The notes below the pieces were generated by a model, which ran no database searches, was not told the origin of the DNA, and saw only the letters and a program-made list of their open reading frames with translations. A DNA stretch of 64,000 bases from NCBI RefSeq assembly GCF_000300335.1, contig NZ_AMRM01000013.1:62001-126000 (forward strand), read 5' to 3'. The position numbers and the translations under genes are program-made. The DNA is from Nitratireductor pacificus pht-3B. Lineage in GTDB: Bacteria; Pseudomonadota; Alphaproteobacteria; Rhizobiales; Rhizobiaceae. The first letter of the stretch is position 1. Every line of letters begins with the position of its first letter. Below, piece after piece: positions 15,857-36,808 of the stretch.

Positions 15857-15860
<4 letters not shown>

Positions 15861-19633: not shown

Positions 19634-21127
19634 TCATATCGGGTCGAGCGGGTAGATCGGGCGGCGCAGCTTGCGATAGGGAAGCATGCGCAGATTGCTT
19701 GCACAGGGGCCGCGCGTGCTGACCGTGTAGCTTGCCTTGGCGATGCCGTCATAGGCGCGGCGATGGGCGACGGCCGCCTTTACGCCGATCACCGAAAGCG
19801 CTTCCGGCTCGATGCCCTGCGAGCGCAGCTGGCCCAGATCGAATGGCGGCGTCTTGCGACTGGTGAGCAGCACGGTGACGGTTTCGTCGGCGACGATCAC
19901 CGCGCAGGGACCCATGTCGAATGTCGCGCCCTGCGAGGCGGCGAGATGGCTGTTCAGGTCCTCGAGGCGGAAGGCGCCGGCGCTCAGCCGGACGAGCCGT
20001 GCCGAGACCTCGACCGGGCCTTCGTCGAGCGGGCTGCTCCTGCCGCCGATGCGCAGGCGCCGGACATCACCCGGCTGCGCATCCTGCAGGCCGGCAACGG
20101 CCTCGGGATCGGCGATCACGACCGCCGAGTTCTCCATTCCGTGCCGCAGCAGCCCGCGCAGCACGGCCGTGCAGTCGCCGCCCGCCCCGCCGCCGATATT
20201 ATCGGCGGGCTCGACGACGATGTTCGGCCCCGGCGCATCGCCGATCGCCTTCAGCGCCGCATCGAGATCCCACTCCCGCGGCAGGCCGCGCTCGCGCAGC
20301 GCCATGGCCAGATCATCCAGCGACTGCAGATGCCGCTCGGCGGACGCGCGGTCACCCTCGGTGACCAGCGAGAACGCCACACCAGCATCATGCACGTCGG
20401 AGAAGGCAAACCCGGCCACGACATTCACCGCCCAGACCGCCGGGTCCTGCCGCTCGATGTCCCGGGCGCGCGCCTCAAGCTCCTTCATCGGATCGTCGGC
20501 AGTGCCCGTCCCGGTCGGCGGCCACATCAGCGGCAGATTGCGGACCGCCATCCACGGCAGTGTTGCCTCGTCGAGGCTGCGCGCCAGAAGGCGGGCGGAC
20601 CGAACCGCGGAATCGCGGGCATCGGTGTGCGGGTTCTCGCGATAGCAGACGAGGCCGTTGGCGTTCCCGGCCATTGTCCGGGTGAAGGTCGCGTGAAGGT
20701 CGAACACGCCGAACACCGGCAGACACTCGGCGCCGGAAACGCCGCGGATGCGCCGCAGGAACTCACCTTCCGGATCATCGCATGCGTCGGTCACCGCAGC
20801 GCCGTGCAGCTCGAGCCAGATGCCGTCCAGCGGGCCCGACTGCAGCGCATCGCGCAGATCGGCCTCGAACGCCTGCCAGAAGCGCTCGAAAACCGCATGG
20901 TCGATCATCCCCGAAGGAAGAGCGGTGTACTCGACCGAGGCGATCAGGTCCCAGCCGTTCTCCTCCGCCACCTCCAGAAAGCCGTCCATGGCCGAGGCGT
21001 CGCCACGCCGCGCGAAAAGCGCGTCGCCCTGCCGGATATCGAACTGCGCCTCTCCTGTCCGGTCTTCCACGAATGTGTGGGTTTCATGGAAAAATCCCGC
21101 GAAGAGTATCCTCGGACGTTGCTTCAT
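19634..21127 (-). CDS. M81-family (MlrC-like) metallopeptidase, copy 1
   Basis: A 497-residue cytoplasmic enzyme of the family that includes MlrC, which hydrolyses linear microcystin fragments. Landmarks: FHETHTF (13-19), LHGA (107-110), FDLHATFT (142-149), NPHTD (165-169), the EPADNIGGGAGGD motif in the C-terminal domain and the RRPIYPLDP tail. The ATG at 21127 (GGGGTGAG upstream) is preferred to one at 21181. It is clearly closest to copy 4 (33464-34960), with long identical stretches. It leads the dipeptide ABC operon and FAH gene, so it probably acts on what that importer brings in. Activity on microcystin should not be assumed. Confidence 0.9.
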   Translation of the reverse strand: MKQRPRILFAGFFHETHTFVEDRTGEAQFDIRQGDALFARRGDASAMDGFLEVAEENGWDLIASVEYTALPSGMIDHAVFERFWQAFEADLRDALQSGPLDGIWLELHGAAVTDACDDPEGEFLRRIRGVSGAECLPVFGVFDLHATFTRTMAGNANGLVCYRENPHTDARDSAVRSARLLARSLDEATLPWMAVRNLPLMWPPTGTGTADDPMKELEARARDIERQDPAVWAVNVVAGFAFSDVHDAGVAFSLVTEGDRASAERHLQSLDDLAMALRERGLPREWDLDAALKAIGDAPGPNIVVEPADNIGGGAGGDCTAVLRGLLRHGMENSAVVIADPEAVAGLQDAQPGDVRRLRIGGRSSPLDEGPVEVSARLVRLSAGAFRLEDLNSHLAASQGATFDMGPCAVIVADETVTVLLTSRKTPPFDLGQLRSQGIEPEALSVIGVKAAVAHRRAYDGIAKASYTVSTRGPCASNLRMLPYRKLRRPIYPLDPI

Positions 21128-21471
21128 CTCACCCCGGTTCCGCATATCGGTCGGGATCCGGCTGGCCATCGGCCAACCCATATTCCCGCGAACCGCTTGC
21201 CTCCATCACTGCCGCATCGGACAGCGCCGCCTTCTATCGTTCAATAATATAGTACGACAGGATGCGTTCCTCGCTGAGAAGTAAAGGAGCAAACCCTTCA
21301 TGCGTCAACCGGTTTTTACGGAATTATTGCGCTATCGCGACTTTTGCGCACTTTGAAGATATGGATGAATGGCTTGCAACCAAAAATTTCATCCTATATT
21401 GTAAGATGAAATCTAACTTGCCCCTCCCCCCGGCGCGTGGCAAGAAAGCCGACCATCAAGGAGAAGCGTTC
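21128..21471. promoter_or_regulatory. Divergent control region between M81 copy 1 and IclR regulator
   Basis: This AT-rich 344-bp gap holds two related 17-bp sites. One at 21239-21255 (GTTCAATAATATAGTAC) lies near the metallopeptidase; the other at 21391-21407 (ATCCTATATTGTAAGAT, opposite orientation) lies near the IclR gene. The second is embedded in a longer perfect dyad, ATTTCATC-N11-GATGAAAT (21386-21412). Matching sites occur at 33168 and 33330. These are probably binding sites of the adjacent IclR protein. Confidence 0.6.
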
Positions 21472-22257
21472 ATGGCTGATGCCACCCGCGAGCAAGGCCC
21501 TGCAGTGGAAGCGCGCATTCAGTCCATCGCCCGCGCCAAGGCGCTTCTCGATGCGATGGTCGAGGGCGACTGGGTTTCGCTGCGCGTGCTTGCCTCCAGA
21601 ACCGGCCTGGTGAAGACAACGGCGTTCAACCTCGTCAACGCGCTCGTCGAGACGGGACTTGCCGAGCGCGATCCCGAAACGGGCTCCTACCGTCTCAGCC
21701 TGCAGCATGTGGTCTACGGCCGCGCGGTGGAACGCCGGCTCGACATCCTCGCCATCGCACGGCCGCATCTCGTGTCGCTCTGCGCCGAGACGCGAGAGAC
21801 CATCAACCTCGCCCTGCCCTGCCCTGCCGACGCGGTCATCGTCGAAAGCCTCGAGGGCAGCCAGAACCTGCGCGTCTCGTCCTATTCGGGCACGCGCGCG
21901 CCCTATCATTCGACCGCCTGCGGCCGCGCACTCCTGGCCTATCAGAGCGACCATTTCCGCAAGTTCATCTATGCGGTCGGACCGCTGCTTAAGCTGACCC
22001 CCAACACCATCACCGAGACCCGTGAACTCGAGAGCGTGCTCGAGCGCTGCAAGACGGACGGATGGACCGTGGAAATGGAGGAGAACGAACTGGGCAGCGC
22101 CTGCATCGCAGCGCCGATCTTCGGCCCGGGCGGCGATGTCATCGCGTCGGTCAGCATCGCCGGCCCCGCCGCGCGCTTCGATCCCAGGACCGTGCAGCGC
22201 TTCGGCACCCTGCTCGTCGCCAATCTGGCGCGGATCAGCCACGACCTGACGCACTGA
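21472..22257 (+). CDS. IclR-family transcriptional regulator
   Basis: A 261-residue regulator: winged helix-turn-helix in about residues 12-75 (IARAKALLDAMVEGDWVSLRVLASRTGLVKTTAFNL region) and an IclR effector domain behind it. Several ATG/TTG codons lie further upstream in frame, but the start at 21472 has AAGGAG at 8 nt and places the HTH normally. It is divergent from M81 copy 1 and convergent with the second peptide importer, so it is a strong candidate regulator of both. Ligand unknown. Confidence 0.9.
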   Translation: MADATREQGPAVEARIQSIARAKALLDAMVEGDWVSLRVLASRTGLVKTTAFNLVNALVETGLAERDPETGSYRLSLQHVVYGRAVERRLDILAIARPHLVSLCAETRETINLALPCPADAVIVESLEGSQNLRVSSYSGTRAPYHSTACGRALLAYQSDHFRKFIYAVGPLLKLTPNTITETRELESVLERCKTDGWTVEMEENELGSACIAAPIFGPGGDVIASVSIAGPAARFDPRTVQRFGTLLVANLARISHDLTH

Positions 22258-22304
22258 CGCCTGCGGTTCCTCGCCCGGCGCGCCGTGACAGGCCGCGACC
22301 CGCG

Positions 22305-23252
22305 TCAGCCGTAATCGATGCGCGGATCGACATAGGCATAGAGCACATCCACAGCTAGATTGATCGCCACGTAGAGTATCAGGATGACGACGATGCAGCC
22401 CTGGATCAGCGGGTAGTCGCGCGTGCTGATGGCCTGGATCAGCAGCCGGCCGAGACCCGGATAGGTGAACACCGCCTCGGTGACCACGGCGCCGCCGATG
22501 AAGCTCGCCATCATCAGGCCGACGATGGTGATGAACGGCAGGAGCGCATTGCGCATGATGTGGATCCCCACCACCTGCCGCTCGGGTAGCCCCTTGGCAC
22601 GCGCCGTGCGCACATAGTCCGCGCGCAGTTCACTCACCAGCGAGGCGCGCAGAAATCGCGCCAGGATGCCCGACACGTAGACGCCCAGCGTTATCGCCGG
22701 CAGCAGGAGATTGCGGATCGCCGTCAGCGGCTCTTCCCAGATCGGCACGTAGCCCGAGACGGCAGGCAGCCAGCGCAGGTCCACCGCGAACCAGAGGATC
22801 AGCAGGATGCCCAGCCAGAACGTCGGCACGCCAAGCGCCAGCGCACTCCAGGCCGACAGCGCGCGGTCGATCCACGAGCCGGGCGAGATCGCGCTGATGA
22901 CGCCGACGGGAATGCCGAGTGCCAGAGCGACGAGTGTCGCCGCGACGGCCAGATGCAGGGTCGCCGGCAGACGCTGGCCGATGAGGTCGACCACGGGCTC
23001 GCTCGCATAGATCGAGACGCCCAGATCCCCAACGGCAGCCCTTCGGAGCCAGTCGAGATACTGCACGACCACCGGCCGGTCGAGACCATATTGGGCGGTG
23101 ACGGCGGCGATCTGCTCCGGTGTCGCGTTCTCGCCCACCAGCCCGGCGACCGGACCGCCGGGCACCGCATAGAGGATCGCCCAGATGCCCAACGAAGCAA
23201 TGAGCAGGACGGGCACCAGTTGCACCAGACGGCGAAGCACGAACCCGATCAT
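22305..23252 (-). CDS. Peptide ABC transporter permease (DppB-like), second system
   Basis: A 315-residue permease: N-terminal helix (MIGFVLRRLVQLVPVLLIAS), YGLDRPVVVQYLDWLRR in the periplasmic part and FTYPGLGRLLIQAI near the C-terminus, all DppB/OppB/GsiC hallmarks. It is the last gene of the second peptide-transport operon and overlaps the DppC-like gene by 4 bp. Confidence 0.93.
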   Translation of the reverse strand: MIGFVLRRLVQLVPVLLIASLGIWAILYAVPGGPVAGLVGENATPEQIAAVTAQYGLDRPVVVQYLDWLRRAAVGDLGVSIYASEPVVDLIGQRLPATLHLAVAATLVALALGIPVGVISAISPGSWIDRALSAWSALALGVPTFWLGILLILWFAVDLRWLPAVSGYVPIWEEPLTAIRNLLLPAITLGVYVSGILARFLRASLVSELRADYVRTARAKGLPERQVVGIHIMRNALLPFITIVGLMMASFIGGAVVTEAVFTYPGLGRLLIQAISTRDYPLIQGCIVVILILYVAINLAVDVLYAYVDPRIDYG

Positions 23253-24127
23253 GACGCGGTCCTTTCGATCTGGACGCCGCCGGCGTCATGGCGGTCTTCG
23301 AGGAGCGACGCCAGCGCGCGCCCGATCACGTCGAAGGAGAGAATGGTGAGTGTCAGGATGACGCCCGGGAGGACCGCGTAGTAGGGCGCCTCGTAGAGAT
23401 AGGACTTGCCCGTGCGCAGCATCTCGCCCCAGCTCGGCGTCGGAGGCGCCACGCCAACACCGAGAAAGGCAAGCGCCGCTTCGAGAAGGATGGCGACCGA
23501 ACACAGGACCACGACCTGGACCAGGATCGGACTCCACGCATTCGGCAGGATCGTGCGGAACATGTTGTATCCCGAAGAGCCGCCGAAAGCCTCCACCGCT
23601 GTCACGAAATCGCTCTTGCGCAACGACAGGACGCGGGCGCGGGTGATGCGGGCGAAATTCGGAATGCCGGTGATGCCGACAGCGATGAAAGCCGCCATCT
23701 GGCTGCGTCCGAGAACGGCGATCAACGCCATGGCGAACAGGATCGCCGGCAGGGCGAGCAGCACGTCGATGAAGCGCATCAGCACCGTGTCGCGCCAGTC
23801 GCCGAAGAAGCCGGCGACAAGGCCGACCGGAATGCCGACGGAGGCCGCGATCACCACCGCGGCCGCCGCCGTCGAGAGCGATGTGCGGGCGCCGTAGATC
23901 ACGCGGGCGAAGATGTCACGGCCAAGCTCGTCCGTCCCGAACCAGTTGGCGGCGGACGGCCCCTTCAGCGCATCCGTCAGCCTCTGGGCAAAGGGGTCGA
24001 TTGGCAGAAGGTCCGCAAACAACGAGACAATCACCATCGCGGCCAGGAACAGGAGGGCGGCCGCACTTGCCGGGCGCGCCATCAGCCCGCTCAGCAGCCA
24101 CAGGGTCGAATTCCACGCCCGGTTCAT
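23249..24127 (-). CDS. Peptide ABC transporter permease (DppC-like), second system
   Basis: A 292-residue permease with the NWFGTDELGRDIFARV periplasmic motif and the LGVGVAPPTPSWGEML segment of DppC/GsiD proteins. The ATG at 24127 overlaps the ATPase stop (ATGA); an in-frame extension up to 24280 lies inside the ATPase gene and is not needed. Confidence 0.93.
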   Translation of the reverse strand: MNRAWNSTLWLLSGLMARPASAAALLFLAAMVIVSLFADLLPIDPFAQRLTDALKGPSAANWFGTDELGRDIFARVIYGARTSLSTAAAAVVIAASVGIPVGLVAGFFGDWRDTVLMRFIDVLLALPAILFAMALIAVLGRSQMAAFIAVGITGIPNFARITRARVLSLRKSDFVTAVEAFGGSSGYNMFRTILPNAWSPILVQVVVLCSVAILLEAALAFLGVGVAPPTPSWGEMLRTGKSYLYEAPYYAVLPGVILTLTILSFDVIGRALASLLEDRHDAGGVQIERTAS

Positions 24128-26190
24128 CGCGAAACCTCCGCAAGCGCGGCAGGATTCTGCTCCAGCGGGCCGGCATGATGACAAGCTGTCCAGGTCGCCA
24201 GTCCCGGATAGGGCCGGAAGGCAGGAACCTCTGCGCAGCAGCGGGCATCTGCGCGAAAGCAGCGCGGGTGAAAGACGCATCCGGAAGGCGGCGCGGCGGG
24301 GCTGGGGATCTCACCCTCCAGCACGATGCGCCTGCTGCTGTGCCGCGCCGCCGGGTCTGGATCGGGGGCAGCCGACAGGAGGCTCTGCGTATAAGGGTGC
24401 ACCGGGTTGCTGTAGAGTTCGTCGCGCGTGCCCTGCTCGACGATGCGGCCGAGATACATGACGGCGACACGGTCGGAGATGTGGCGCACCACGGACAGAT
24501 TGTGCGCGATGAACAGATATGAAAGGCCCAGCTCCGCCTGCAGGTCCTGCAGCAGGTTGAGGATCTGCGCCTGGATCGACACATCCAGCGCGGCGACCGG
24601 TTCATCGAGAATGACCAGGCGCGGCGCGAGGATCAGCGCCCGGGCGATGCCGATGCGCTGCCGCTGGCCGCCGGAGAACTCGCTGGGATAGCGGCTGAGC
24701 ATGCTCCGTGACAGGCCGACCATGTCGAACAGTTCGGCCACGCGTTCGGCTCCGCCCATCTCGTCATAGAGACCGTGGATGCGCAGCGGCTCGGCAACGA
24801 TGTCCTCGGCCGGCAGAACCGGATTGAGCGACGAATAGGGATCCTGGAAAATATACTGCATCCGGCGGCGCGCCTTGCGCTTGTCGGCCGGACCGAGCCG
24901 GACCATCGACTGACCGTCGAAGCGGATGTCGCCGGCGGTCGCCTGCACAAGGCCCATCACGGTCCGGCCGATCGTCGTCTTGCCGCAGCCCGATTCACCG
25001 ACCAGGCTCAGCGTTTCGCCCGCCCGGACGCTGATATCGACGCCATCGACAGCCCGAACCCATCCGGTGGTGCGCTGCAGAACGCTCGACTTGATCGGGA
25101 AGTGGACCTTCAGCCCCTTCACGTCGAGCAGCGGCGGAGCCTCGGCCTCCGCCATCTTCGGCCTCGCCATCGCATGCACTTTCGGGGCGGGCGGCGCTTC
25201 ATCGACGAAATGACACGCGGCATTCTGTTCCGAGGCGACCGTCGAAAGCGGTGGCTCCTCCTCGCGGCAGCGTGGGCGGCCCGAGCCGAGCGCGCAGCGC
25301 GGCTCGAAGGCGCAGCCCGCGGGCAAGGCGTGCGGCATCGGCGGCTGGCCGGGAATGGGGTCGAGCCTAACCTCGTCCGTGTCCATGCGCGGGATCGAGC
25401 GCAGCAGGGCGCGGGTATAGGGATGGCGCGGCGAACGGAAGATCGCCTCCACCGGCCCGGTCTCGACGATGCGGCCGCCATACATGACGGCAACCCGGTC
25501 GGCGACCTGCGCGACGACGCCGAGATCATGCGTGATGAGGACGACGGCGGCGCGCATCTCCGCCTGGCGGCGCGCCAGGACGGACAGCACCTGCGCCTGC
25601 ACGGTCACGTCGAGCGCGGTGGTCGGCTCGTCGGCGATGATCAGCTTCGGCTGGCCGGCGATCGCCATGGCAATGACGGCCCGCTGGCGCATGCCGCCGG
25701 AAAACTGATGCGGATACTGCCGGACGCGCTGTTCGGGATCGGCGATATCGACATCACGCAGCAGCTCGACCGCGCGCCCTTCCGCCTCCGCCGGGCGCAG
25801 GCGCGACAGCGCCACCTGCCCTTCCGTGATCTGACGCCCGACCTTGAGGACCGGGTTGAGCGTGGTACCCGGATCCTGGAAGACGAAGCCGACATCCTCG
25901 CCGCGCATGCGCCGAAGCGCGTCGCGGCCTGCGCCGTTCACCTCGACCCCGCCAAGGGTGATGCTGCCCTCGACACGGGCCGTTTCCGGCAGCAGCCCGG
26001 TGACGGCGAGCGAGGTGACGCTCTTGCCGGAACCAGATTCGCCAACGATGCACAGCACCTCGTTCTGATAGACGTCGAAGTCGACGCCGCGCACGACCGG
26101 CACATGCCGGTCCGCGACGGCAAACGCCACCTTCAGGCCCCGTACCGACAGTACGGGGCCCGCATTTGCGGTTCCTTCCGCCAACCTCAT
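24124..26190 (-). CDS. Fused DppD-DppF-type peptide ABC transporter ATPase
   Basis: A 688-residue protein containing two complete nucleotide-binding domains, as in GsiA/YejF. The first half has Walker [17 protein letters not shown] and [11 protein letters not shown]; after a linker of roughly 80 residues with a C-terminal-tail-like FEPRCALG segment, the second half has [17 protein letters not shown] and [11 protein letters not shown], ending in a tail with FHPRCF. It therefore replaces the two separate ATPases of the first peptide system. Start and stop overlap both neighbours by 4 bp. Confidence 0.95.
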
Positions 26191-27737
26191 TCCTTAAAGC
26201 CGATCGTACGGGCAACAAGGAGGTTGTCGATGTCGAGCGTGAAGCCGGAGAGCTTCGGCGAGGCCACGATCAACCCGATCTCGTAGGAATTGGTAGGAAT
26301 GGCGAAGGACGATTCCACCAGCACCTGGTTGAGATGATCGTAGGCAGCCTTGACCGCCTCGTCCGGCCCGAGCGTCGTGTTCACCCGCTCGATCGCGGCG
26401 ACATATTCGGGGAAGGGATGCGGATCCTTCAGCACCGGGTTGTTCGCCGTCCTGTAGATGCTGTTGGTGGAGACGCGCGAGGGAAACTTCTGGACGTTGC
26501 CGACGCCACCGAAGGTCGCCTTGTAATCGCCGGACAGTTGCGCCTCGACATATTCCGACCCTTCACGCACATCGAGCTCGATGTTGATGTCGAGATCAGC
26601 GAGCGCAGCCTGCACGATCTGGCTGATGGTGGTGGAGGCGGCGTCCGTGCCGTAGACCAGAAGCTTCCAGTCTTCCATCTCGGCCTTGCTCAGGCCGGAT
26701 TCGGTGAACAGTTCCCGCGCCTTGTCAGGATTGAACGCATATTTCTCCGTGTAGGACGCATCGAATGCCGGGCTCGCGGGCGCCCACGGCAGGGCAACCA
26801 CCTCGCCGAGGCCGGCATAGCCGACGCGCAGGATGCCCTCGCGGTCGAGCAGATAGTTGAAGGCCTGGCGGAACTTGGCGTTGTCGAAGGGCGCCTTGGT
26901 GGCGTTGATGCGGAACACCTGCACCAGAGGTCCGGGGCCACGGATGACCTGATAACCTGCGTCCTGCAGGCGCACTGCGCTTCTTGCCGCGCCGCCGTAG
27001 ACCATCTCCAGACCGCCGGATTCGAGCGCGGCGCTGGCCGACGCGTCGTCGCTGAAGATCGTGAAGCGGACTTCGCCAAGGATCGGCTCGTTCTCGCGCC
27101 AGTAGTCCTCATTGGCCGTCAGCACGATGTTCTGGCCCACGGCGCGGCTGTCGAGCTTGTAGGCGCCGGTGCCGGCGGGAACCGTTTCCACCGTCTCGAT
27201 GCCGGCGGCCTCGATCGGCATGACGAACTGCAAGAGGTCGAGCATCTGCCGGTCGGGCGTCGCCGCCTTGAAGTTGATCACCACCGTCTTGTCGTCGGGC
27301 GTCGTCCAGTCCTTGACGATCGCCATGGTGGAGTAGACGTTCTTGCCCTTCTTCGGATCGGTCGCCTTCGCCAGCGTGGCGGCGATATCCGCCGATGTCA
27401 GCACCGCGCCGGAATGGAATTTGACGCCCTCGCGCAGGGTGACGCTGACCGACATATGGTCTTCGGCGATTGTCCAGTCCGTCGCGAGGCTCGGGATCGC
27501 CTCGCCTTCCGGCGTGTATTCGATCAGGCTGTCATAGAGGTTCTTGATCAGCGGAAAATTTACCGTCGAGAACTGCATCGGATCGAAATTGGTCATGTCG
27601 GCGAGCACGCCGACATGCATGGTCCCGCCCTGCAATTCCTCCGCCTGGGAAGGCGTCGCGATGACGAGAGCTGGCGCCGTGGCCAAAGCCAGTAGGACCC
27701 CCAGCGTCCTGATCGGTCGTAACAATGCGTTCTTCAT
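26187..27737 (-). CDS. Peptide ABC transporter substrate-binding protein (family 5), second system
   Basis: A 516-residue SBP_bac_5 protein with a Sec signal peptide (MKNALLRP start, hydrophobic core, cleavage at PSQA-EE near residue 32). The TLREGVKFHSGAVLTSADIAATL family signature is present. The ATG at 27737 has GGGAGC upstream; an extension to 27893 would give an unlikely long leader and overlap the previous gene. It lies 59 bp behind M81 copy 2 and starts the SBP-ATPase-permease-permease block. Confidence 0.92.
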   Translation of the reverse strand: MKNALLRPIRTLGVLLALATAPALVIATPSQAEELQGGTMHVGVLADMTNFDPMQFSTVNFPLIKNLYDSLIEYTPEGEAIPSLATDWTIAEDHMSVSVTLREGVKFHSGAVLTSADIAATLAKATDPKKGKNVYSTMAIVKDWTTPDDKTVVINFKAATPDRQMLDLLQFVMPIEAAGIETVETVPAGTGAYKLDSRAVGQNIVLTANEDYWRENEPILGEVRFTIFSDDASASAALESGGLEMVYGGAARSAVRLQDAGYQVIRGPGPLVQVFRINATKAPFDNAKFRQAFNYLLDREGILRVGYAGLGEVVALPWAPASPAFDASYTEKYAFNPDKARELFTESGLSKAEMEDWKLLVYGTDAASTTISQIVQAALADLDINIELDVREGSEYVEAQLSGDYKATFGGVGNVQKFPSRVSTNSIYRTANNPVLKDPHPFPEYVAAIERVNTTLGPDEAVKAAYDHLNQVLVESSFAIPTNSYEIGLIVASPKLSGFTLDIDNLLVARTIGFKE

Positions 27738-29476: not shown

Positions 29477-30295
29477 TCACGCGCGCAGCTCGACAGGAGA
29501 GAGCGCGAACTCCGGGCGCGGCGCCATGGAGCCGATACATGTCGAGATGCGCACGGCGGCCTCCTTCAGCGCCTCCGCGGCGCGCGCCGTCATGTCCTGC
29601 CCGCGCATGCGCTTCTCGGGCGCCGAAAGGCTCATCGCCGCGACCGGGTAACCGGTACCGTCGAGGATCGGCACACCGATGCACATCAGGCCGTCCTCGT
29701 TCTCGCCGATCTCGACCGCGTAGCCGCAACGGCGCACGTCGCTCGCCTGCCGTCGCAGGCTGCGTCCGTCGGTCAGCGTCCTGATGGTCATCGCCGGTAG
29801 CGCGGCGCTCAGGATCGGCTCCATCGCCTCGTCCGGCAGAAAGGCGGCCATCGCCTTGCCGAGCGATGTCGAGTGGATCGGATGCCGGTGCCCCACCCGC
29901 GCCTGCATCCGCACGGGCCGTTCGGCGCCAACGATGTCGATATAGACGATCTCGCCTTGCGCGCGGACGGCCAGGTTGACCGTTTCGCTGAACGCTTCCG
30001 CGAGCCTGTGCATCTCGGGCAGGGCATGGTCGCGCAGGTGCTGCCGGTCGCGGTCCACCTCGGCCAGATCGCGGAACCGGGGACCCGTGCGATAGCGGTC
30101 GCGGCGCAGGTCATATTCCAGGAACGACGCTGCCGAAAGGCTCTGCAGGTAGCGGAAAACGGTCGTCTTCGGGAGTTGCACGGCGTGCACCGTCTCGGTG
30201 AGCGTCACGTCGCGCCCCTGGCGCGTCACATACTCGAGAACCTGCAGGGCCCTCATCACCGGTTGAACGACATAGTCTTCGCCGATCGCGCTCAT
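29477..30295 (-). CDS. IclR-family transcriptional regulator
   Basis: A 272-residue regulator: winged HTH in about residues 12-72 (TLTETVHAVQLPKTTVFRYLQSL) and a C-terminal effector domain with the GEIVYIDIVGAERPVRMQARVGH core. It lies 83 bp behind the type III PLP gene on the same strand, downstream of M81 copy 3, and directly upstream of the M81 copy 2 operon. It could control either. It is the third IclR protein in this window. Confidence 0.9.
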   Translation of the reverse strand: MSAIGEDYVVQPVMRALQVLEYVTRQGRDVTLTETVHAVQLPKTTVFRYLQSLSAASFLEYDLRRDRYRTGPRFRDLAEVDRDRQHLRDHALPEMHRLAEAFSETVNLAVRAQGEIVYIDIVGAERPVRMQARVGHRHPIHSTSLGKAMAAFLPDEAMEPILSAALPAMTIRTLTDGRSLRRQASDVRRCGYAVEIGENEDGLMCIGVPILDGTGYPVAAMSLSAPEKRMRGQDMTARAAEALKEAAVRISTCIGSMAPRPEFALSPVELRA

Positions 30296-30378
30296 TGCCT
30301 CACCCTTTCATGTCCCGCAGCGCATCGGCCACCGTCGGCCAACGCTGCCTGCAATCCTTTCTCCGGGTGCGGAGGCGA

Positions 30379-31680
30379 TCAGAAATAGGTCTTCAACGCC
30401 TTCGTCACCCGATACTGTTCATCGACCACCAGCGGCATCGACCATTTGTCAAAGGTCGTGCAGGGGTGGCCGATGCCGAAGCCGACCATGTCGCCGAACG
30501 CCAGCGGGCTGTCCTGCGGCACGGTCAGATGGCAATGCTGATCGTTGAGCGCGACGGTTTCGTGCCCACCGGGAATCGGTTGCGGCGCATCCATGCCCGA
30601 TGCGGGACGGTACCAGCGCTGCGGCTGCGGCAGGCCGGCGTCGAAGCCGACATCCCGCTTGCCCATGGTCAGCATCACGCGGCCCGCCTCCGGCCGGGAT
30701 TGCACATAGGCCCAGACCTCCAGCGCCGGCTCCAGGCCGCCGGCAGGGAGATTGAGCGTCGTTTCCGAAACAATGCGCTGGAAGGCCTTTGCGTAGCCCA
30801 TTGTGTCATGCGTCAGGTAGCAGCCCGAGCGCAGGACCCGCAGGACCGGCCGGGAGAACGACACGCGGTCGAAGCGCTCGCCCACCCGGTCGAAGAAGGA
30901 CGAGCCGCCGGCGCTGATGACCACCGGCGCCTCCCCCGCAACAAGCCCTTCATCGAGCGCAGCCGACGCAAGTGCTGCGACATCGTCGATCAGCTCGTCG
31001 GCCGCCTGGGGCGTCGGCAGCACACCCTCGAAACACTCGAAGCCGGCGAGTTGCAGGCCGGGCATCGCCGCGATGCCACGCGCCAGCGCCAGCGCCTCGG
31101 CGCGCGTCCGAGCACCGGTTCGACCACCTGTGAAACCGGCCTCGACGAGGATGCGCAGCGGATTGCCGGGCGGCGGCGGATTGCGCCGCGTTGCATCGGC
31201 AAGCAATGCCAGTCCCGCCTCGCCGTCGGCCAGGCAATAGAGCTCCAGCGCCTCATCGCGAAGGGCCCCGAAACAGGCATCGGCGGCGGCACGGCCTACC
31301 GGCTGGTTTGCCAGCAATATTCGCTTCACCCCGAAACGCCGGCAGACTTCCAGCTGCTGGACCGTCGCGACGGTGATCGCCCAGGCGCCGTCCGCAATCT
31401 GCAGGTCGAACAGATGCGGCGACATGGTGGTCTTTCCGTGCGGCGCGAGCAGAAGGTCGTTCGCCGCCGTGAAATCGCGCATCCATGCACTGTTGGCCCG
31501 CAGAATGTCCTCGCGGATGATCGCAGCGGGCAAGGGAATGTCGCCGGCCAGCAGGCTCCAGCCCTGTCCGCCGACATCGCCAAGGCGCATCGGCGGCACG
31601 CCGAACGGCAGCCCTTTGGTCAGCGGGTCGAGCGGCTGTTCGTCAAGTGCCGCAACATCAAGTCGTGGAATCAAAGCCAT
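30379..31680 (-). CDS. Fold-type III PLP enzyme (D-serine dehydratase / D-threonine aldolase-like)
   Basis: A 433-residue alanine-racemase-fold PLP enzyme. The Schiff-base lysine is K83 in PHGKTT; the ISAGGSSFFD segment would bind the cofactor phosphate; a DQHCHL segment near residue 387 lies where the zinc ligands of D-serine dehydratase-type enzymes are found. Family members dehydrate D-serine or D-threonine, or cleave 3-hydroxy-D-amino acids. It overlaps M81 copy 3 by 10 bp and is therefore co-translated with it, suggesting that the peptidase product contains a D- or hydroxy-amino acid. Which reaction it performs is not readable from the sequence. Confidence 0.85.
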   Translation of the reverse strand: MALIPRLDVAALDEQPLDPLTKGLPFGVPPMRLGDVGGQGWSLLAGDIPLPAAIIREDILRANSAWMRDFTAANDLLLAPHGKTTMSPHLFDLQIADGAWAITVATVQQLEVCRRFGVKRILLANQPVGRAAADACFGALRDEALELYCLADGEAGLALLADATRRNPPPPGNPLRILVEAGFTGGRTGARTRAEALALARGIAAMPGLQLAGFECFEGVLPTPQAADELIDDVAALASAALDEGLVAGEAPVVISAGGSSFFDRVGERFDRVSFSRPVLRVLRSGCYLTHDTMGYAKAFQRIVSETTLNLPAGGLEPALEVWAYVQSRPEAGRVMLTMGKRDVGFDAGLPQPQRWYRPASGMDAPQPIPGGHETVALNDQHCHLTVPQDSPLAFGDMVGFGIGHPCTTFDKWSMPLVVDEQYRVTKALKTYF

Positions 31681-33134
31681 GGGTTCGCATCCAGAGGCGA
31701 GATAGGGCGGCGAACCTTGGCGTAGGTGATCTTCGTCACATCCGCTGGATAGGGGCCGCCCGTGTCGAGATAGTGGATCTGCGCGGCGATCTTCGAGAAG
31801 GCCGCATAGAAGTGGTTCGAGGATTTCACCACGACCATCTTCTTCTGCGCAAGATCAATACCGAGATCGGTGAAGGCGGGCGGGCTGAAGGTCTGGGCGC
31901 GGCCCGTCACCAGCACGATGTCAAGATTCCCGATCGTTATGGATGCGGCCGGGCCGAGCGAGACCCAGCTCTGCTCGAACGGAATCAGCAGATCGTCGGT
32001 CGTCGCGCGCACCGTCACCACCGCGTCGACCGGCGGCCCCGACGTTGCGGCCGCCTTGCCGCAGAACCGCAGCGGTATGACGGCGCCCGCGCCGGCGCCC
32101 CGACAGAGCGACACCGCTGTCGGATCCCAGAACGCGCCGATGGCGGCCGGGATTTCCGGATGGCGCAGCAGCGTCTCGACCATCACCGATGAATCGCCGG
32201 CGACCCCGCCGCCGGGACTGTCCCAGCGGTCGGCGAAGACGATGGGCTGGCCTTCCTCGGCCAGCGCCAGGGCGACAGCCTCCTCCGGCTTGTAATGGCG
32301 CGGCCCGGCGCCGGAGCCCCCCCATCCGAGAATCTCGCGCCCCAACGCCTCGGCCAGCGCCCTGGCCTTCGGCCTGTTCGCCTCCCCGTCGGCGACCACC
32401 AGAACCTTGGTGCCAACGTCATAGACATCTGCTGCCTGGAAACCGTGCGCGACGGAAATGCTGAGAATGCCGTCCCGCCCCTCCATCGCAAGCATGCGAT
32501 CGACGAAGGCGCGGCCGGGCTCACGGCTCGTCATGAAGCCCGACATGGCGCGGCAATCGAACACTTCGGAAACCGGCGCCACCTCGCCCCGCGCGGTCCG
32601 CAGACAGAGCTCCACCAGATCTTCAGCCCGGTAGAGAAAGTCCGTGTGGGGGAATTCCTTGAAGGCAACGAGTATATCGGCGGCTTCGACCCGCTTGTCG
32701 GTCAGGTGACAATGCATGTCGAGTTCCGCGCCGATGACGCAGTCCGGCCCCACGATGGCCCGCGCCCGCGCCAGGAGGTCGCCCTCGCAGTCGTCATAGT
32801 CGCGCGCGACCATCGCACCGTGCAATCCGAACAGGACGATGTCGAGCGGCATTGCCTGCTCGAGCTGATCTAGAATCTCGTCGCGCAGGCTTTCATAGGC
32901 TTCCCGCGACACCAGACCGGCGGGTTCCGCCCAGGTCGCCGTTCCCTCGATCAGCGTGAAGCCTTCAGCGGCGGCGCGCTGCCGCGCGGCGACAACGGGC
33001 GCCGAACACAGGGTCGGCGTCTGCGGATGCGTTCCGGGCGGGCAGTAGAAGGCGGACTCGAAAGCCGTCCTGTCGACGAACAGCGGCGAGAACGTGTTTG
33101 TCTCGGTTGCCAGAGAAGCGACGAAAACGCGCAA
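31671..33134 (-). CDS. M81-family (MlrC-like) metallopeptidase, copy 3
   Basis: A 487-residue M81 protein. It starts with TTG, supported by AAGGAGGGAG close upstream. Landmarks: ATETNTF (9-15), FGLHGAMV, ELDMHCHLTD, FPHTDF, the ADRWDSPGGGVAGD motif and an RRPISPLD tail. Like copy 2 it has ETN and not HETH in the first motif, but it is not especially close to copy 2. It is followed with a 10-bp overlap by the type III PLP enzyme and then an IclR gene. It is divergent from copy 4 across a 329-bp control region. Confidence 0.9.
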   Translation of the reverse strand: MRVFVASLATETNTFSPLFVDRTAFESAFYCPPGTHPQTPTLCSAPVVAARQRAAAEGFTLIEGTATWAEPAGLVSREAYESLRDEILDQLEQAMPLDIVLFGLHGAMVARDYDDCEGDLLARARAIVGPDCVIGAELDMHCHLTDKRVEAADILVAFKEFPHTDFLYRAEDLVELCLRTARGEVAPVSEVFDCRAMSGFMTSREPGRAFVDRMLAMEGRDGILSISVAHGFQAADVYDVGTKVLVVADGEANRPKARALAEALGREILGWGGSGAGPRHYKPEEAVALALAEEGQPIVFADRWDSPGGGVAGDSSVMVETLLRHPEIPAAIGAFWDPTAVSLCRGAGAGAVIPLRFCGKAAATSGPPVDAVVTVRATTDDLLIPFEQSWVSLGPAASITIGNLDIVLVTGRAQTFSPPAFTDLGIDLAQKKMVVVKSSNHFYAAFSKIAAQIHYLDTGGPYPADVTKITYAKVRRPISPLDANPWL

Positions 33135-33463
33135 TTGCTCCCTCCTTGCCGCCTTCGGCTTTCAATCATTCCATATTATAGAATAACTGCTGCCTATTGA
33201 TCATCAATTAGCGGCCAGATCGAATACTTTGTCAACCGCGCACAAGATGGTTGCGCAGAAATTCCGCACAAACGCCTTGCAATTTGCGATTTCCCATAGT
33301 TTCAATGTCTCAGATTGCAATCTCACAACATCTTACAATGTAGAACAACAATCCAACATGCCGGGCGCCGGAACAGAAACGACCAACCCCGGTTGCGAAA
33401 GGGGCGGCGCATCTTCGCGGCAACAGCGGAACCCGTTTCAACCCATCAATGCGGTGAGGACAC
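33135..33463. promoter_or_regulatory. Divergent control region between M81 copies 3 and 4
   Basis: This AT-rich 329-bp gap holds ATTCCATATTATAGAAT (33168-33184), an imperfect palindrome next to copy 3, and ATCTTACAATGTAGAAC (33330-33346) nearer copy 4. Both match the sites at 21239 and 21391 in length, centre and conserved positions. A separate perfect 12-bp palindrome AGATTGCAATCT lies at 33312-33323. The remaining sequence shows no gene. Confidence 0.6.
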
Positions 33464-34960
33464 ATGAGTAAGAAGCGCATCCTGCTCGCGGCGATCTTTC
33501 ACGAGACCCACAGCTTCGTCGCGCAGAACACCACATTCGACGACTTCGCCATCAAGCGCGGCGAAGAACTCCTGCAACGCAGGCACGACGGCTCGACGAT
33601 TTCCGGTTTCCTCGAAGTGGCGGAAGCGGAAAACTGGGAGGTGGTCCCGATCAGCGACTATTCCGCAACGCCGTCCGGCACCATCGACCATGCGGTGTTC
33701 GAACAGTTCTGCGACGAGTTGGAGGAGGGTCTCGTGAAAGCGCTCGCCGAGGGCGGTCTCGACGGGATCTGGCTCTCCCTGCACGGCGCCATGGTCACCA
33801 CGCGCTCCGTCGATCCGGAAGGCGACCTTCTGGCCAGGATACGCGCTGTTCCCGGCGCCGAGACGCTGCCCCTGTTCGCCGTATTCGACCTTCACGCCAC
33901 CATGACCGCGAAGATGGCGGCGCACGCCAACGGCCTCATCGGCTATCGCGAGAATCCGCACATCGATTCCAGGGATTCAGCCGTGCGTTCGGCGCGGATG
34001 CTGGCGAGGTCGCTGGCCGGGAACCTGCGGCCCAAAGTGTTCGTGCGCAACGCGCCGATCATCTGGGCGCCGCCCGGCACCGGCACGGCGGACCGGCCGA
34101 TGCGCGACCTCGCGCGACAGGCGCGCGCGCTCGAAGCTCAGAACCCGGACATCTGGGAAATCAGCACTGTCGCTGGCTACGCCTTCTCCGACGTCCCCGA
34201 CGCCGGCGTGGCGTTCAGCATCACCACCACCGCCCCGGAGCATGAGGCTAACCAGGCGCTCGATGCGCTGGAGCGGACGGCTATCGAGTTGCAGGAGCAC
34301 GGAAAGCCCGAGGAATGGGATCTCGATGCCGCCCTGTCGGAAATCAAGACGAAAAGCGGCGGCCCCTATATCGTCGTCGAACCGGCCGACAATATCGGCG
34401 GTGGCGCGCCCGGAGACGACACGGCGGTGCTGCGCGGCTTCCTGAAGCATGGCTTCACCAATGCCGCAGTGATTATCGCCGATGCCGATGCCGTGGCCGC
34501 GCTCGCGGGCGCGAAAGCGGGAGAACGGCGCAAGCTGAGCATCGGCGGCCGGGGTAGCCCGCTCGGCGCCGGCCCGCTGGAGGCGGAGGTCGCGTTCGTC
34601 AGCCGCAGCGACGGCGCCTTCACGCTGGAGGACCGGAACAGCCACATGGTCGCCTCGCGCGGCATCCATATCAGGATGGGCGCTTCGGCGGTCGTCCGAA
34701 TCGAGGGCGTGACCGTGCTGCTGACCAGCCTCAAGACTTCGCCCAACGATCTCGGGCAGCTCCGCTCGCAGGGCATTGTGCCGGAGACACTGTTCGCGAT
34801 CGGCGTCAAGGCGGCCGTGGCGCACCGGCGTGCCTACGATCCCATCATGGCCGGCAGCTACACGGTCAAGACGGCCGGGCCGTGCACCAGCGCTCTGACC
34901 ACCCTGCCCTATCGCCGGCTGCGCCAGCCAGTCTTCCCCATCAGCCACCAAAGGACCTGA
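33464..34960 (+). CDS. M81-family (MlrC-like) metallopeptidase, copy 4
   Basis: A 498-residue M81 protein very similar along its whole length to copy 1: FHETHSF (12-18), LHGAMV, FDLHATMT, YRENPHIDSRDSAVRSAR, EPADNIGGGAPGDD. GAGGA stands before the ATG. Here the enzyme is paired not with a transporter but, one base after its stop, with a RidA protein and then a class III aminotransferase, so it probably acts later in the same pathway or on a related substrate. Copies 1 and 4 look like a duplication that then took up different partners. Confidence 0.9.
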   Translation: MSKKRILLAAIFHETHSFVAQNTTFDDFAIKRGEELLQRRHDGSTISGFLEVAEAENWEVVPISDYSATPSGTIDHAVFEQFCDELEEGLVKALAEGGLDGIWLSLHGAMVTTRSVDPEGDLLARIRAVPGAETLPLFAVFDLHATMTAKMAAHANGLIGYRENPHIDSRDSAVRSARMLARSLAGNLRPKVFVRNAPIIWAPPGTGTADRPMRDLARQARALEAQNPDIWEISTVAGYAFSDVPDAGVAFSITTTAPEHEANQALDALERTAIELQEHGKPEEWDLDAALSEIKTKSGGPYIVVEPADNIGGGAPGDDTAVLRGFLKHGFTNAAVIIADADAVAALAGAKAGERRKLSIGGRGSPLGAGPLEAEVAFVSRSDGAFTLEDRNSHMVASRGIHIRMGASAVVRIEGVTVLLTSLKTSPNDLGQLRSQGIVPETLFAIGVKAAVAHRRAYDPIMAGSYTVKTAGPCTSALTTLPYRRLRQPVFPISHQRT

Positions 34961-34961
34961 C

Positions 34962-35348
34962 ATGACCATCGAATATCCGGGCGATCCGAACACGCCGCGT
35001 TCCCACCTGCCGTTCAGCCCCGCCACCCGTGTCGGCAACCTGATCTTCGTCTCCGGGCAGGCATCCGTCGACAAGACGGGCAAGATCATCCCCGACAGTT
35101 TCGAGGGCGAACTGCGCCGCTCCATGGAAAACCTGCGCAAGGTTCTGGAATCAGCCGGCAGCGATCTCGCGCATGTGGTGCAGACCCGCAACTATGTCCG
35201 CGACGACACCGACCTGCCGGAGTTCAACCGCCTGTATCTCGACTATTTCAAGCAGCCCTATCCGGCACGCACCACACTGTCGCGCTGCCTTGGCGGGCTG
35301 CGCTACGAAATCGACTGCATTGCCATCGCGAAAGACGAGCGCTCTTGA
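34962..35348 (+). CDS. RidA-family (YjgF/YER057c/UK114) protein
   Basis: A 128-residue member of the Rid superfamily, whose archetype hydrolyses reactive enamines/imines made by PLP dehydratases to 2-oxo acids and ammonia. The key arginine (R103 in PARTTL) and a following glutamate (E116) are present, so imine deaminase activity is plausible. AAGGA precedes the ATG, which follows the M81 stop by one base. Its position in an operon with M81 copy 4, and near a D-serine-dehydratase-like enzyme, fits a role in finishing off dehydrated amino acids. Confidence 0.9.
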   Translation: MTIEYPGDPNTPRSHLPFSPATRVGNLIFVSGQASVDKTGKIIPDSFEGELRRSMENLRKVLESAGSDLAHVVQTRNYVRDDTDLPEFNRLYLDYFKQPYPARTTLSRCLGGLRYEIDCIAIAKDERS

Positions 35349-35455
35349 GCCGAAATACATGACACCAGCCAGTATTCCGCCAGACGGAACGGCATCCAAT
35401 TTACAAAAATATGGAACTGACGCCAGTTACCGTAGGTATGATCAGGAGCATTGCC

Positions 35456-36808
35456 TTGTCACTTTCTTCAACCATTGGAAATCCGAAAACGGACTCCAGG
35501 TCCCTTTTGTCCTTCGAAAAATCCGCTGCGACCATCAAGCATAACTCCCAGTGGATGGCGGGAGGCGTGAACAGCAATTTCCGCCTGAACATCTCGCCGA
35601 CGCCGCTGGTCTTCGAACGCGGAGAAGGCCCCTATCTCTACGATGTCGATGGCAACAAGCTCATCGACTACTATCTCGGCATGGGGCCGATGATCCTCGG
35701 CCACAACCCAGCGGCGCTGACGGCGGCGGTGAAAACCCAGATCGACAGCGGCATTCTCTTCGCCGGCCAGACGGCCGTGGAAGCGGAGGCCGCCCGGCTC
35801 GTCTGCGAGATGGTGCCTTCGGCCGAGCGCATGCGCTTCGGCAGCTCGGGCTCGGAAGTGGACCAGGCGGCGCTGCGCGTCGCCCGCGCCGCGACCGGCC
35901 GGCAGAAGGTGATCAAGTTCGAGGGCCACTATCACGGCTGGTTCGACAACGTCCTGTGGTCGACAGCGCCCGGCCTCGACGCTGCCGGCCCCTATGAAGC
36001 GCCGAAGGCCGTCGCCGGCAGCAAGGGCCAGCTCGCGGACACGGCCGAAACGCTCGTCGTCCTGCCGTGGAACGATCTCGACCTGCTGGAGGCCCGGCTG
36101 GCGAAGGGAGACATCGCCGCCGTCATCATGGAAGCGGCCATGTGCAATGCCGGCGCGGTTCATCCGGCCGCCGGCTATCTCGAAGGCGTGCGCGAGGCCT
36201 GCACGCGCCACGGCACGATCCTGGTCTTCGACGAGGTCATCACCGGCTTCCGTCTGGCGCCGGGAGGCGCCCAGGAGCGTTTCGGCGTTTCGCCGGATCT
36301 CTCGACCTTCGGCAAGGCCATCGCCAACGGCTTCCCCGTGGCGGCCATCGCCGGCCGCGCCGATCTGCTCGACCTGTTCTCGACGGGCGGGGTCGTGCAT
36401 GGGGGAACCTATAACTCGCAGCCCATCGCCATGGCGGCGACGGTCGCCACGCTGAAGGCGCTGCAGCCATCGCTCTATGCCGGGATAGACAAGACCGGCA
36501 CGCGGCTGATGAGCGGCATGCGGGAGATCTTCCAGCGCGCCGGCGTCAAGGCCTCGGTCGAGGGTTTCCCGCAGGTCTTCCACGTGGCCTTCGGTCTCGA
36601 AGAGCCGGCCACGAACTACCGGGACCTCGCCCGCATGGACAAGCAGGCCTATGTGGCGTTCACCACGGCTCTGCTCCGGCGCGGCGTGCGGGCGCTCGAG
36701 CGTGGCGCCTGGTTCATGTCGAGTGAGCACGATGACGCCGTGATCGGCCAGACGCTGGACGTGGTCGAGGATGCGGTTCGCCAGATCAAGGCCGACGGCG
36801 CGGTCTGA
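35456..36808 (+). CDS. Class III aminotransferase / aminomutase (glutamate-1-semialdehyde-aminomutase-like)
   Basis: A PLP enzyme of about 450 residues. It shows the SSGSEVDQAALRVARAATGR cofactor loop, the FDEVITGFR aspartate motif and the FGKAIANGFP lysine (K287 counted from the chosen start). It resembles HemL but is not expected to make haem precursors here: the family also contains beta-amino-acid and phenylalanine-2,3-aminomutase-type or beta-transaminase enzymes. I choose the TTG at 35456, which has AGGAG 7 nt upstream; ATGs at 35411 and 35438 lack good ribosome-binding sites. It follows RidA by about 107 bp and ends the rightward M81 operon. Confidence 0.85.
   Translation: MSLSSTIGNPKTDSRSLLSFEKSAATIKHNSQWMAGGVNSNFRLNISPTPLVFERGEGPYLYDVDGNKLIDYYLGMGPMILGHNPAALTAAVKTQIDSGILFAGQTAVEAEAARLVCEMVPSAERMRFGSSGSEVDQAALRVARAATGRQKVIKFEGHYHGWFDNVLWSTAPGLDAAGPYEAPKAVAGSKGQLADTAETLVVLPWNDLDLLEARLAKGDIAAVIMEAAMCNAGAVHPAAGYLEGVREACTRHGTILVFDEVITGFRLAPGGAQERFGVSPDLSTFGKAIANGFPVAAIAGRADLLDLFSTGGVVHGGTYNSQPIAMAATVATLKALQPSLYAGIDKTGTRLMSGMREIFQRAGVKASVEGFPQVFHVAFGLEEPATNYRDLARMDKQAYVAFTTALLRRGVRALERGAWFMSSEHDDAVIGQTLDVVEDAVRQIKADGAV

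Follow-up and report, generated by a model that had tools for sequence, protein, structure and literature searches.

A conserved cluster of four M81-family genes and two Opp-type importers in Nitratireductor pacificus: a candidate catabolic module for amide-linked beta-hydroxy-D-amino acids

This report concerns a group of genes in a 64,000-nucleotide stretch of Nitratireductor pacificus pht-3B (contig NZ_AMRM01000013.1, positions 62,001 to 126,000; hereafter, the window). Four complete genes for M81-family proteins, which we call M81a to M81d, are packed into 15.3 kb of the window among genes for two Opp/Dpp-type ABC importers, a pyridoxal phosphate (PLP)-dependent amino-acid deaminase, a RidA-family protein, and a class III aminotransferase, and members of this set occur together in other genomes more often than chance allows. 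We propose that they work as a catabolic module that imports and breaks down a small molecule in which at least one beta-hydroxy-D-amino acid is amide-linked, a reading to which we give a probability of about one half. The module is apparently undescribed: no description of such a system was found among open-licence papers judged by their titles and the first part of their abstracts.

In this model, the compound would enter the cell by one of two exchangeable Opp-type ABC importers under the control of IclR-type regulators. The M81 enzymes would act as zinc amide hydrolases, each cutting one amide bond: M81b would be the importer-linked enzyme, M81c would release the beta-hydroxy-D-amino acid, and M81d, or its alternative form M81a, would release a second, amine-bearing unit. 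A deaminase of the type of OngC (from the ong cluster, discussed below) would convert the D-amino acid to a 2-keto (or 2-keto-3-deoxy) acid and ammonia, RidA would hydrolyse the enamine or imine, and the class III aminotransferase would take the amine off the second unit; in Nitratireductor, the FAH-family hydrolase may split a diketo acid downstream. The design principle would be the pairing of an amidase with a PLP enzyme, employed twice. We infer the individual reactions and the substrate; the beta-hydroxy-D-amino acid would be D-serine-like or, more speculatively, an amino-sugar acid, and both substrate classes are kept here.

Gene content, active sites, and enzyme subfamilies

A sequence-only reading of this DNA had described four complete M81 genes, and this description holds, since each of the four proteins matches both M81 domains, scoring 254-264 bits for PF07364 (cut-off, 22.8) and 115-146 bits for PF07171/MlrC_C (cut-off, 27.2). 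The whole genome (51 contigs, 4.47 Mb) has seven PF07364 matches, four of them in the module region. M81a and M81d are 59% identical and every other pair is 25-31% identical, and at identities of only 25-59% duplication in the assembly is ruled out as the source of the copies. A FastTree phylogeny of 115 sequences, thinned from 184 at 85% identity, places the four copies in three lineages: that of M81b, a wider M81c clade that includes MlrC (support, 1.0), and an a/d lineage. M81a groups with Oceaniovalibus, another Rhodobacteraceae record, and M. brassicacearum, M81d groups with Devosia and Microvirga among others, and in this tree the split of the a and d forms predates Nitratireductor. M81a and M81d may well be two versions of one function.

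All four proteins keep E39, H133, D167, H169, H191, D332, D341, and K464 (MlrC numbering), and across the 184 sequences each of these positions is conserved in 181-184, except for K464 (175). In the MlrC study (PMC9982164), E39, D167, H169, and H191 are the zinc ligands, and mutants of H133 and D332 are without measured activity. The same study gave the roles of nine substrate-binding residues that we compared (N41, W59, F67, E70, F96, D341, S392, Q468, and S485; R492 lies beyond the segment aligned). D341 is kept in all four proteins, N41 in M81b and M81c, and S392 in M81c; W59, F67, E70, F96, Q468, and S485 are kept in none. Position 70 is Asp in M81a and M81d, position 96 is Tyr in M81b and Trp in M81c, and positions 59 and 67 are R and R in M81a, L and T in M81b, C and T in M81c, and K and R in M81d, a pair of residues from which we would predict an anionic ligand for M81d. 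Because the metal ligands are kept and most of the MlrC substrate residues are not, the comparison argues for four active zinc hydrolases whose ligands differ from that of MlrC and are partly more polar. The NCBIfam MlrC model NF041767 (cut-off, 999) scores 94, 129, 381, and 88 bits for M81a to M81d, respectively.

The sequence-only reading was right that M81c overlaps a PLP enzyme gene (by 10 bases), but the likeness of that enzyme to D-threonine aldolase did not stand. Its closest solved structure is the D-serine deaminase 3gwq (320 bits), with the D-threonine aldolase 7dib at 65 bits. In a tree of 16 sequences, it sits with amino-acid deaminases that include an ong-type cluster member (support, 0.88); the ong-type representative there is the Pseudoalteromonas shioyasakiensis cluster enzyme, OngC itself being absent from the tree. 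It is 36% identical to the P. shioyasakiensis deaminase and 22-26% identical to five D-threonine aldolase (D-TA)-type enzymes, which are separate in the tree. By subfamily placement, we assign the enzyme to the OngC/3gwq-type amino-acid deaminases and not to the D-threonine aldolases.

The class III aminotransferase matches best the structure 6w80 of glutamate-1-semialdehyde aminomutase (GSAM; 292 bits), followed by D-phenylglycine and beta-amino-acid transaminases (152-183 bits), among them 4ao9 (170 bits) and 2yku (152 bits), which are beta-phenylalanine aminotransferase or beta-transaminase structures. It stays under every NCBIfam cut-off (GntE, 391 bits against 525; PRK00062, 385 against 398; HemL TIGR00713, 363 against 527), and identity with HemL, the GSAM enzyme, was rejected on these curated cut-offs, narrowly so for PRK00062. 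In an alignment to 3fq8, Gly stands at the position that we take to be E406 of GSAM. We predict that the enzyme acts on a beta- or gamma-amino acid or on an amino-ketone. The beta-hydroxyaspartate (Bhc) pathway was also considered and rejected, as its cut-offs failed (BhcC, 70 bits against 690; IclR-type regulator 1 against BhcR, 153 against 350).

We infer operons from gene order, strand, and spacing. Operon 1, on the minus strand, reads M81a, an SBP_bac_5 solute-binding protein (SBP), two permeases, two ATPases, and the FAH-family hydrolase; operon 2, also on the minus strand, reads M81b, an SBP_bac_5 protein, a fused double ATPase, and two permeases. That two M81 genes head operons for full Opp-type importers is borne out by domain content, both operons encoding SBP_bac_5, BPD_transp_1 permeases, and ATPases with ABC_tran and oligo_HPY domains. 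As had also been read from the sequence, M81d is followed by RidA, at a gap of one base, and then by the aminotransferase.

What do the importers carry? In the Protein Data Bank (PDB), OppA1 matches a "peptide" SBP (8upi, 184 bits) and AgaA (182 bits) best; DppA and AppA follow at 115-138 bits, and AccA, the agrocinopine protein, at about 106 bits. For OppA2, the best match is AgaA (124 bits). We take AgaA to be a binder of agropinic acid. The likeness to these opine importers, so named in the PDB, lies in the shared SBP family and Opp-type ABC architecture, and the matches to AgaA and AccA are weak. Neither OppA1 nor OppA2 reached an equivalog SBP cut-off in NCBIfam. An attempt to read the substrate from related binding proteins was uninformative, the best 18 nonorthologous family-5 SBPs for each OppA being only 24-30% identical. 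On sequence grounds, the solute-binding proteins decide nothing about the ligand. In loci mostly from Bosea and its relatives, type 1 and type 2 importer genes interchange beside M81c, the deaminase, and usually M81b, despite OppA1 and OppA2 orthologs being only about 28% identical.

Conservation of the module as a unit

In N. soli, the entire region is present with its gene order unchanged. On a megaplasmid of Microvirga lotononidis, the order is aminotransferase, RidA, M81d, M81c, deaminase, IclR2, importer 2, importer 1, and IclR1; this stretch has an extra M81 gene, 38% identical to M81c, and the best M81a match on the plasmid is the M81d ortholog. Matches to M81b of at least 60% identity were found on none of the plasmid records.

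Screening GTDB genomes with the a/d alignment, we retained the best 80 loci of 313 relatives. We defined a close set of 39 of these loci by an a/d-lineage match of at least 57%, leaving out two N. soli loci; five of these 39 do not reach 15 kb in length. The close set includes Devosia, Bosea, Chelatococcus, Kaistia, Acuticoccus, Aestuariivirga, Microvirga, and Oceaniovalibus. Within it, M81c is found in 30 loci, the deaminase in 32, M81b in 26, the aminotransferase in 25, and an orthologous importer SBP in 31; M81c and the deaminase occur together in 27, and M81b, M81c, and the deaminase in 22. The remaining 39 loci, 16 of them shorter than 15 kb, have the aminotransferase (at least 50% identity) in 10, RidA in 12, M81c in 1, and M81b and the deaminase in none.

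An order-wide search covered 397 genomes, including that of N. pacificus, at E-value cut-offs of 1e-100 for M81b, 1e-190 for M81c, 1e-120 for M81d, and 1e-130 for the deaminase, which were found in 9, 11, 11, and 12 genomes, respectively. The sequence-only reading would have been undone by genes scattered singly among relatives; instead, these four occur together in 7 of the 396 other genomes, representing 3 genera, at least three of them occur in 9, and exactly one occurs in 5. In each of the nine genomes, the genes share one contig and lie a few kilobases apart. Pairwise Fisher P values for co-occurrence range from 9e-16 to 3e-12 by genome and from 9e-6 to 2e-4 by genus. The grouping of the module genes exceeds chance, and because of these counts and the clustering on single contigs, we conclude that the module is rare and patchy, yet kept together. 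The co-occurrence supports the earlier proposal of a modular catabolic system, conserved as a unit, with importers, several amide hydrolases, and the chemistry of D- or beta-hydroxy-amino acids.

Loci labelled Verrucomicrobia with an a/d-lineage M81 gene have an aminotransferase-like gene (36-41% identity) in 13 of 13 cases and RidA (63-69%) in 10 of 13. Orthology of these aminotransferases is doubtful because they are only 36-41% identical, and identities of up to 43% occur among class III enzymes that were not observed next to an M81 gene.

Which other genes accompany the module? Neighbours were counted in 41 alphaproteobacterial module loci and in 39 control stretches. Genes of the SDR family occur in 8 of the 41 loci (controls, 5/39), MR/MLE in 5 (2/39), and CUT1 permeases in 4 (6/39), and PAAT permeases in 8 (1/39). 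Other amide hydrolases are rare (M20, 0; D-aminoacylase, 0; S12, 1; Amidohydro_1, 5, with 0/39 in controls). A scan of 20 neighbours for recurrent extra genes gave scattered SDR, Ldh_2, Amidohydro_1/2, S12, and others, none of them constant.

Several observations weigh against the model. Neither M81a nor M81b lies in the 45-kb M. lotononidis stretch, which does carry both importers (the search did not cover the chromosome of this species). RidA, at 60% identity or more, is present in just 13 of the 39 close loci. The order-wide search scored only the top three or four candidates per genome, and five of the seven genomes with all four genes belong to one genus. Sugar-acid genes are missing: none of the 41 module loci has an HpcH aldolase, a KDG or KDGal kinase, a KDPGal aldolase, or an IlvD gene. 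In the survey of other M81 loci described below, the control stretches were hand-picked at round coordinates, with one 529-base stretch dropped, and the loci are not phylogenetically independent.

Table 1. Genes of the module and the adjacent dehydratase gene, in window coordinates
Gene product	Position	Strand	Remarks
FAH-family hydrolase, 2,4-diketo-3-deoxy-rhamnonate-hydrolase-like	13191..14036	-	Last gene of operon 1; PDB 8gsr, 332 bits
OppF1, ATPase of importer 1	14068..15045	-	ABC_tran + oligo_HPY
OppD1, ATPase of importer 1	15042..15860	-	ABC_tran + oligo_HPY
OppC1, permease of importer 1	15857..16750	-	BPD_transp_1 + OppC_N
OppB1, permease of importer 1	16747..17694	-	BPD_transp_1 + BPD_transp_1_N
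OppA1, family-5 SBP of importer 1	17728..19335	-	SBP_bac_5, 313 bits
M81a amide hydrolase (putative), a/d lineage	19634..21181	-	PF07364 + PF07171; metal site kept; start possibly 21127
IclR-type regulator 1	21262..22257	+	IclR_C + HTH_IclR; divergent from M81a
OppB2, permease of importer 2	22305..23252	-	BPD_transp_1
OppC2, permease of importer 2	23249..24127	-	BPD_transp_1; likely start
OppDF2, fused double ATPase of importer 2	24124..26190	-	2x ABC_tran + 2x oligo_HPY
OppA2, family-5 SBP of importer 2	26187..27737	-	SBP_bac_5, 240 bits; likely start
M81b amide hydrolase (putative), b lineage	27797..29311	-	First in operon 2; PF07364 + PF07171; metal site kept
IclR-type regulator 2	29477..30295	-	IclR_C + HTH_IclR
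Fold-III PLP amino-acid deaminase, OngC/3gwq-like	30379..31680	-	PF14031; 3gwq, 320 bits
M81c amide hydrolase (putative), clade shared with MlrC	31671..33134	-	PF07364 + PF07171; MlrC 7ylq, 364 bits
M81d amide hydrolase (putative), a/d lineage	33464..34960	+	PF07364 + PF07171; metal site kept
RidA-family enamine/imine deaminase	34962..35348	+	PF01042, 82 bits
Class III aminotransferase, GSAM/beta-transaminase group	35411..36808	+	PF00202
IlvD/Edd sugar-acid dehydratase, galactonate-dehydratase-like	37046..38863	+	PDB 7m3k, 1107 bits; adjacent, membership uncertain

The IlvD/Edd dehydratase gene stands at the same position in N. soli. The FAH hydrolase scores 431 bits against NCBIfam NF053535, under the cut-off of 500. 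Elsewhere in the window, an AAT-type acyl hydrolase (PF03417) and an RpiR-type regulator lie at 46730-48726, next to open reading frames (ORFs) at 44546-46740 that by eye resemble a polar-amino-acid importer, probably another amide-catabolic operon. Upstream of the module, at 6745-11671, an M20 amidohydrolase is found with ORFs that by eye resemble an amino-acid importer, which suggests amide or amino-acid catabolism. An ABC exporter-like gene, a TonB receptor, a FecCD permease, and a Peripla_BP_2 protein at 50807-57918 are probably an iron/siderophore uptake cluster.

Related systems and competing explanations

The ong cluster of Pseudoalteromonas prydzensis ACAM 620 is described (PMC9537276) as serving oxidative utilization of chitin (N-acetyl-D-glucosaminate) by direct deacylation and deamination: OngB is an amidase that acts before OngC, OngC deaminates D-glucosaminate, D-serine, and D-threonine, and the RidA protein OngD is essential in vivo, its role being given there as unknown. 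Like the module, it clusters an amide hydrolase, a fold-III PLP deaminase of the same subfamily, and RidA. However, OngB is a D-aminoacylase and the amidases of the module are M81 proteins; ong has an RpiR regulator and an SSS carrier where the module has IclR regulators and Opp importers; ong has KdgK and GH20, neither KDG kinase nor D-aminoacylase being found in any of the 41 module loci; and the ong enzymes listed in the paper include one amidase and no class III aminotransferase. Because amidase, kinase, regulator, and carrier differ, we regard the module as resembling ong in its amidase-deaminase-RidA core without being a member of it.

With MlrC and the mlr system, the module shares the M81 family, the zinc ligands as given in PMC9982164, and the inclusion of MlrC within the wider M81c clade; it differs in the loss of most substrate-binding residues, in gene context, and in bringing three M81 lineages together. 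A further relative is a cassette of M81, D-TA, RidA, SDR, RpiR, and CUT1 genes on plasmids of Rhizobium, Phyllobacterium, and Nitratireductor, on which our literature search found no paper. Its M81 protein belongs to the c clade, with about 50-54% identity to M81c, and the cassette has a PF14031 enzyme and RidA, but the PF14031 enzyme is D-TA-type (22-26% identical to the window deaminase), the importer is sugar-type, and the stretches covered contain no class III aminotransferase.

How general is this association? Half of the 60 relatives searched (30/60) hold M81 genes, with up to seven per genome. A survey of 50 nonmodule M81 loci, three of them from the N. pacificus genome and with two M81 fragments of one genome left out, was compared with 39 control stretches taken from the same genomes (P values uncorrected). 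Enriched near M81 are family-5 SBPs (SBP5; 21/50 versus 3/39; P, 3e-4), PF14031-like enzymes (11/50 versus 0/39; 0.002), M20 (13/50 versus 1/39; 0.003), RidA (12/50 versus 1/39; 0.005), class III aminotransferases (6/50 versus 0/39; 0.03), CUT1 permeases (18/50 versus 6/39; 0.03), and IclR (11/50 versus 2/39; 0.03). Corresponding counts are 8/50 versus 2/39 for MR/MLE enolases (0.18), 3/50 versus 0/39 for FAH (0.25), and 1/50 versus 1/39 for PAAT permeases. All 11 of the PF14031-bearing loci have RidA and a CUT1 sugar permease, and 10 have an SDR.

A second type of M81 locus in the N. pacificus genome (contig C12, 77000-96999) comprises an Opp importer, M81, an AstE/AspA-type deacylase, a galactonate-type MR/MLE dehydratase, SDRs, and an FAH hydrolase; the same type occurs in N. 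soli (FAH present) and on a Cereibacter plasmid (AstE/AspA-type deacylase present), and it resembles a sugar-acid pathway that includes an amidase. On a Halobaculum plasmid (568-13330), an Opp importer, an aldehyde dehydrogenase, a creatininase-family protein, a class III aminotransferase, M81, RidA, and IclR lie together. This cluster was rejected as a cross-domain ortholog of the M81d-aminotransferase-RidA core: its M81 is 27-30% identical to the window copies, falls outside the a/d lineage in the strict sense, and in our alignment has Ser and Pro in place of two residues that are otherwise conserved. Because the M81 is divergent and the set is absent from the three other haloarchaeal M81 loci examined, we count the cluster as one recurrence only.

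Is the substrate an amino-sugar acid? In this version of the model, which is compatible with the module as proposed, an N-acylated or amidated amino sugar (or its acid) would be taken up, the M81 enzymes would be N-deacylases like OngB, the deaminase would yield a 2-keto-3-deoxy sugar acid, and FAH- or IlvD-type enzymes would finish the route. We consider this possible, short of probable. Annotated plasmid contexts of six deaminase relatives include sugar-acid enzymes in four cases (the ong-type cluster, A. larrymoorei, Comamonas, and Novosphingobium) and lack them in two, and the placement of the deaminase beside the sugar-context enzymes has a support of 0.22 at best. In Comamonas, the context holds an Opp importer, a D-aminoacylase, KDGal kinase, and KDPGal aldolase; in A. 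larrymoorei (plasmid stretch 1-17275), two Opp-type importers flank RidA, an HpcH-type aldolase, an aldose epimerase, a semialdehyde dehydrogenase, an OngC-like deaminase, an SDR, and a gluconolactonase. The latter stretch is likely an oxidative amino-sugar pathway, and no M81 is annotated there. Because these two of the four sugar-acid contexts use Opp-type importers, such importers are no proof of peptides. A deaminase relative from the same family (69% identity) also lies beside an Opp-type importer, and the 16 kb covered there contain no M81.

Three M81c homologs (62-65%) outside the module, from the order sample and the N. pacificus genome, all adjoin importer genes of the sugar type (CUT1 permease or SBP_bac_1), which speaks for an amino-sugar acid, as do the FAH gene in operon 1 and the second M81 locus type with its dehydratase; a 70% relative of M81c, however, does not follow this pattern, its neighbours being an a/d-type M81 and a family-5 SBP. 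Sugar-type genes are also more frequent in the 13 Verrucomicrobia-labelled loci (SDR, 10; Amidohydro_2, 7; SGL, 4; FAH, 3; controls, 5, 0, 0, and 0 of 39); two that were scanned (Opitutaceae) have an MFS carrier, and D-TA-like PF14031 enzymes occur in 3 of 3 scanned. In the alphaproteobacterial loci, however, the keto-deoxy-acid kinases and aldolases are absent, aldose epimerase is found in 0/41, SGL in 1/41, and FAH in 1/41 (N. soli), and SDR is near the control level. This scarcity favours D-serine-type over amino-sugar products: pyruvate from D-serine needs no special enzyme, and therefore the alphaproteobacterial loci fit D-serine better.

Alternatively, and again as a version of the proposed model, the substrate may be an oligopeptide or pseudopeptide containing D-serine or D-threonine and a beta-amino acid, in line with the peptide or pseudopeptide of the sequence-only reading. 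The M81 proteins would then be true peptidases, the deaminase would yield pyruvate, and the aminotransferase would act on the beta-amino acid. Both operons carry Opp/Dpp-type importers, OppA1 has its top PDB match in a protein named as a peptide SBP, MlrC offers a precedent, and the aminotransferase matches 4ao9 and 2yku. A Phyllobacterium locus combines Opp, an S12 hydrolase, M81, an FAD oxidoreductase, and the same deaminase type; the excess of SBP5 and M20 near nonmodule M81 genes points the same way, and a D-serine product agrees with the missing downstream enzymes. Yet the SBP family is no proof of peptides, most MlrC substrate residues are lost, GSAM structures outscore the beta-transaminases, and related M81 genes also adjoin sugar, HAAT-type, polar-amino-acid, and MFS importers. 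Import and dismantling, as in the earlier proposal, are supported, while the peptide nature of the compound is not established, the binding proteins being ambiguous and the importers near related M81 genes varied; we hold this version as a tentative and, on balance, unlikely one.

It is rather improbable that there is no single pathway, the window being a nutrient-scavenging island of independent catabolic operons in which each M81 enzyme has its own substrate. The window does contain many further catabolic operons and amide hydrolases, the a/d, b-like, and c lineages and the deaminase are each found alone elsewhere, and both importers are exchanged; tight adjacency and co-occurrence across families despite rearranged gene order argue against such independence.

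Degradation of microcystin or another cyanopeptide by a relative of the mlr pathway is very improbable: M81c is the window M81 protein closest to MlrC, MlrC falls inside its clade, D341, N41, and S392 are partly kept with another aromatic residue at F96 in M81b and M81c, and lake names appear on several records of distant a/d-lineage loci, but the MlrC cut-off is not approached, no mlrA, mlrB, or mlrD is named among the annotated module genes (no dedicated search was made), and microcystin-like substrates are unlikely because most MlrC substrate residues are not kept.

Implications for the M81 family

In the papers found, M81 is described almost only by way of MlrC, though half of the relatives searched carry M81 genes. 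The module proposed here links three M81 lineages to defined PLP partners and would thereby point to concrete substrate classes, namely, amides of beta-hydroxy-D-amino acids; it also suggests an origin for the microcystin-cleaving enzyme. To generalize further, we speculate, tentatively and with the odds against it, that M81 proteins are in general not peptidases but zinc amidases acting on amino-sugar or hydroxy-amino acids conjugated through amide bonds, that the module is an undescribed pathway for a widespread multi-amide natural product in which each bond has its own M81-PLP enzyme pair, and that MlrC was recruited from the M81c lineage. Because related cores span Rhizobiales, Rhodobacteraceae, other Alphaproteobacteria, and Verrucomicrobia-labelled genomes, the module could reveal a common, unrecognised nutrient.

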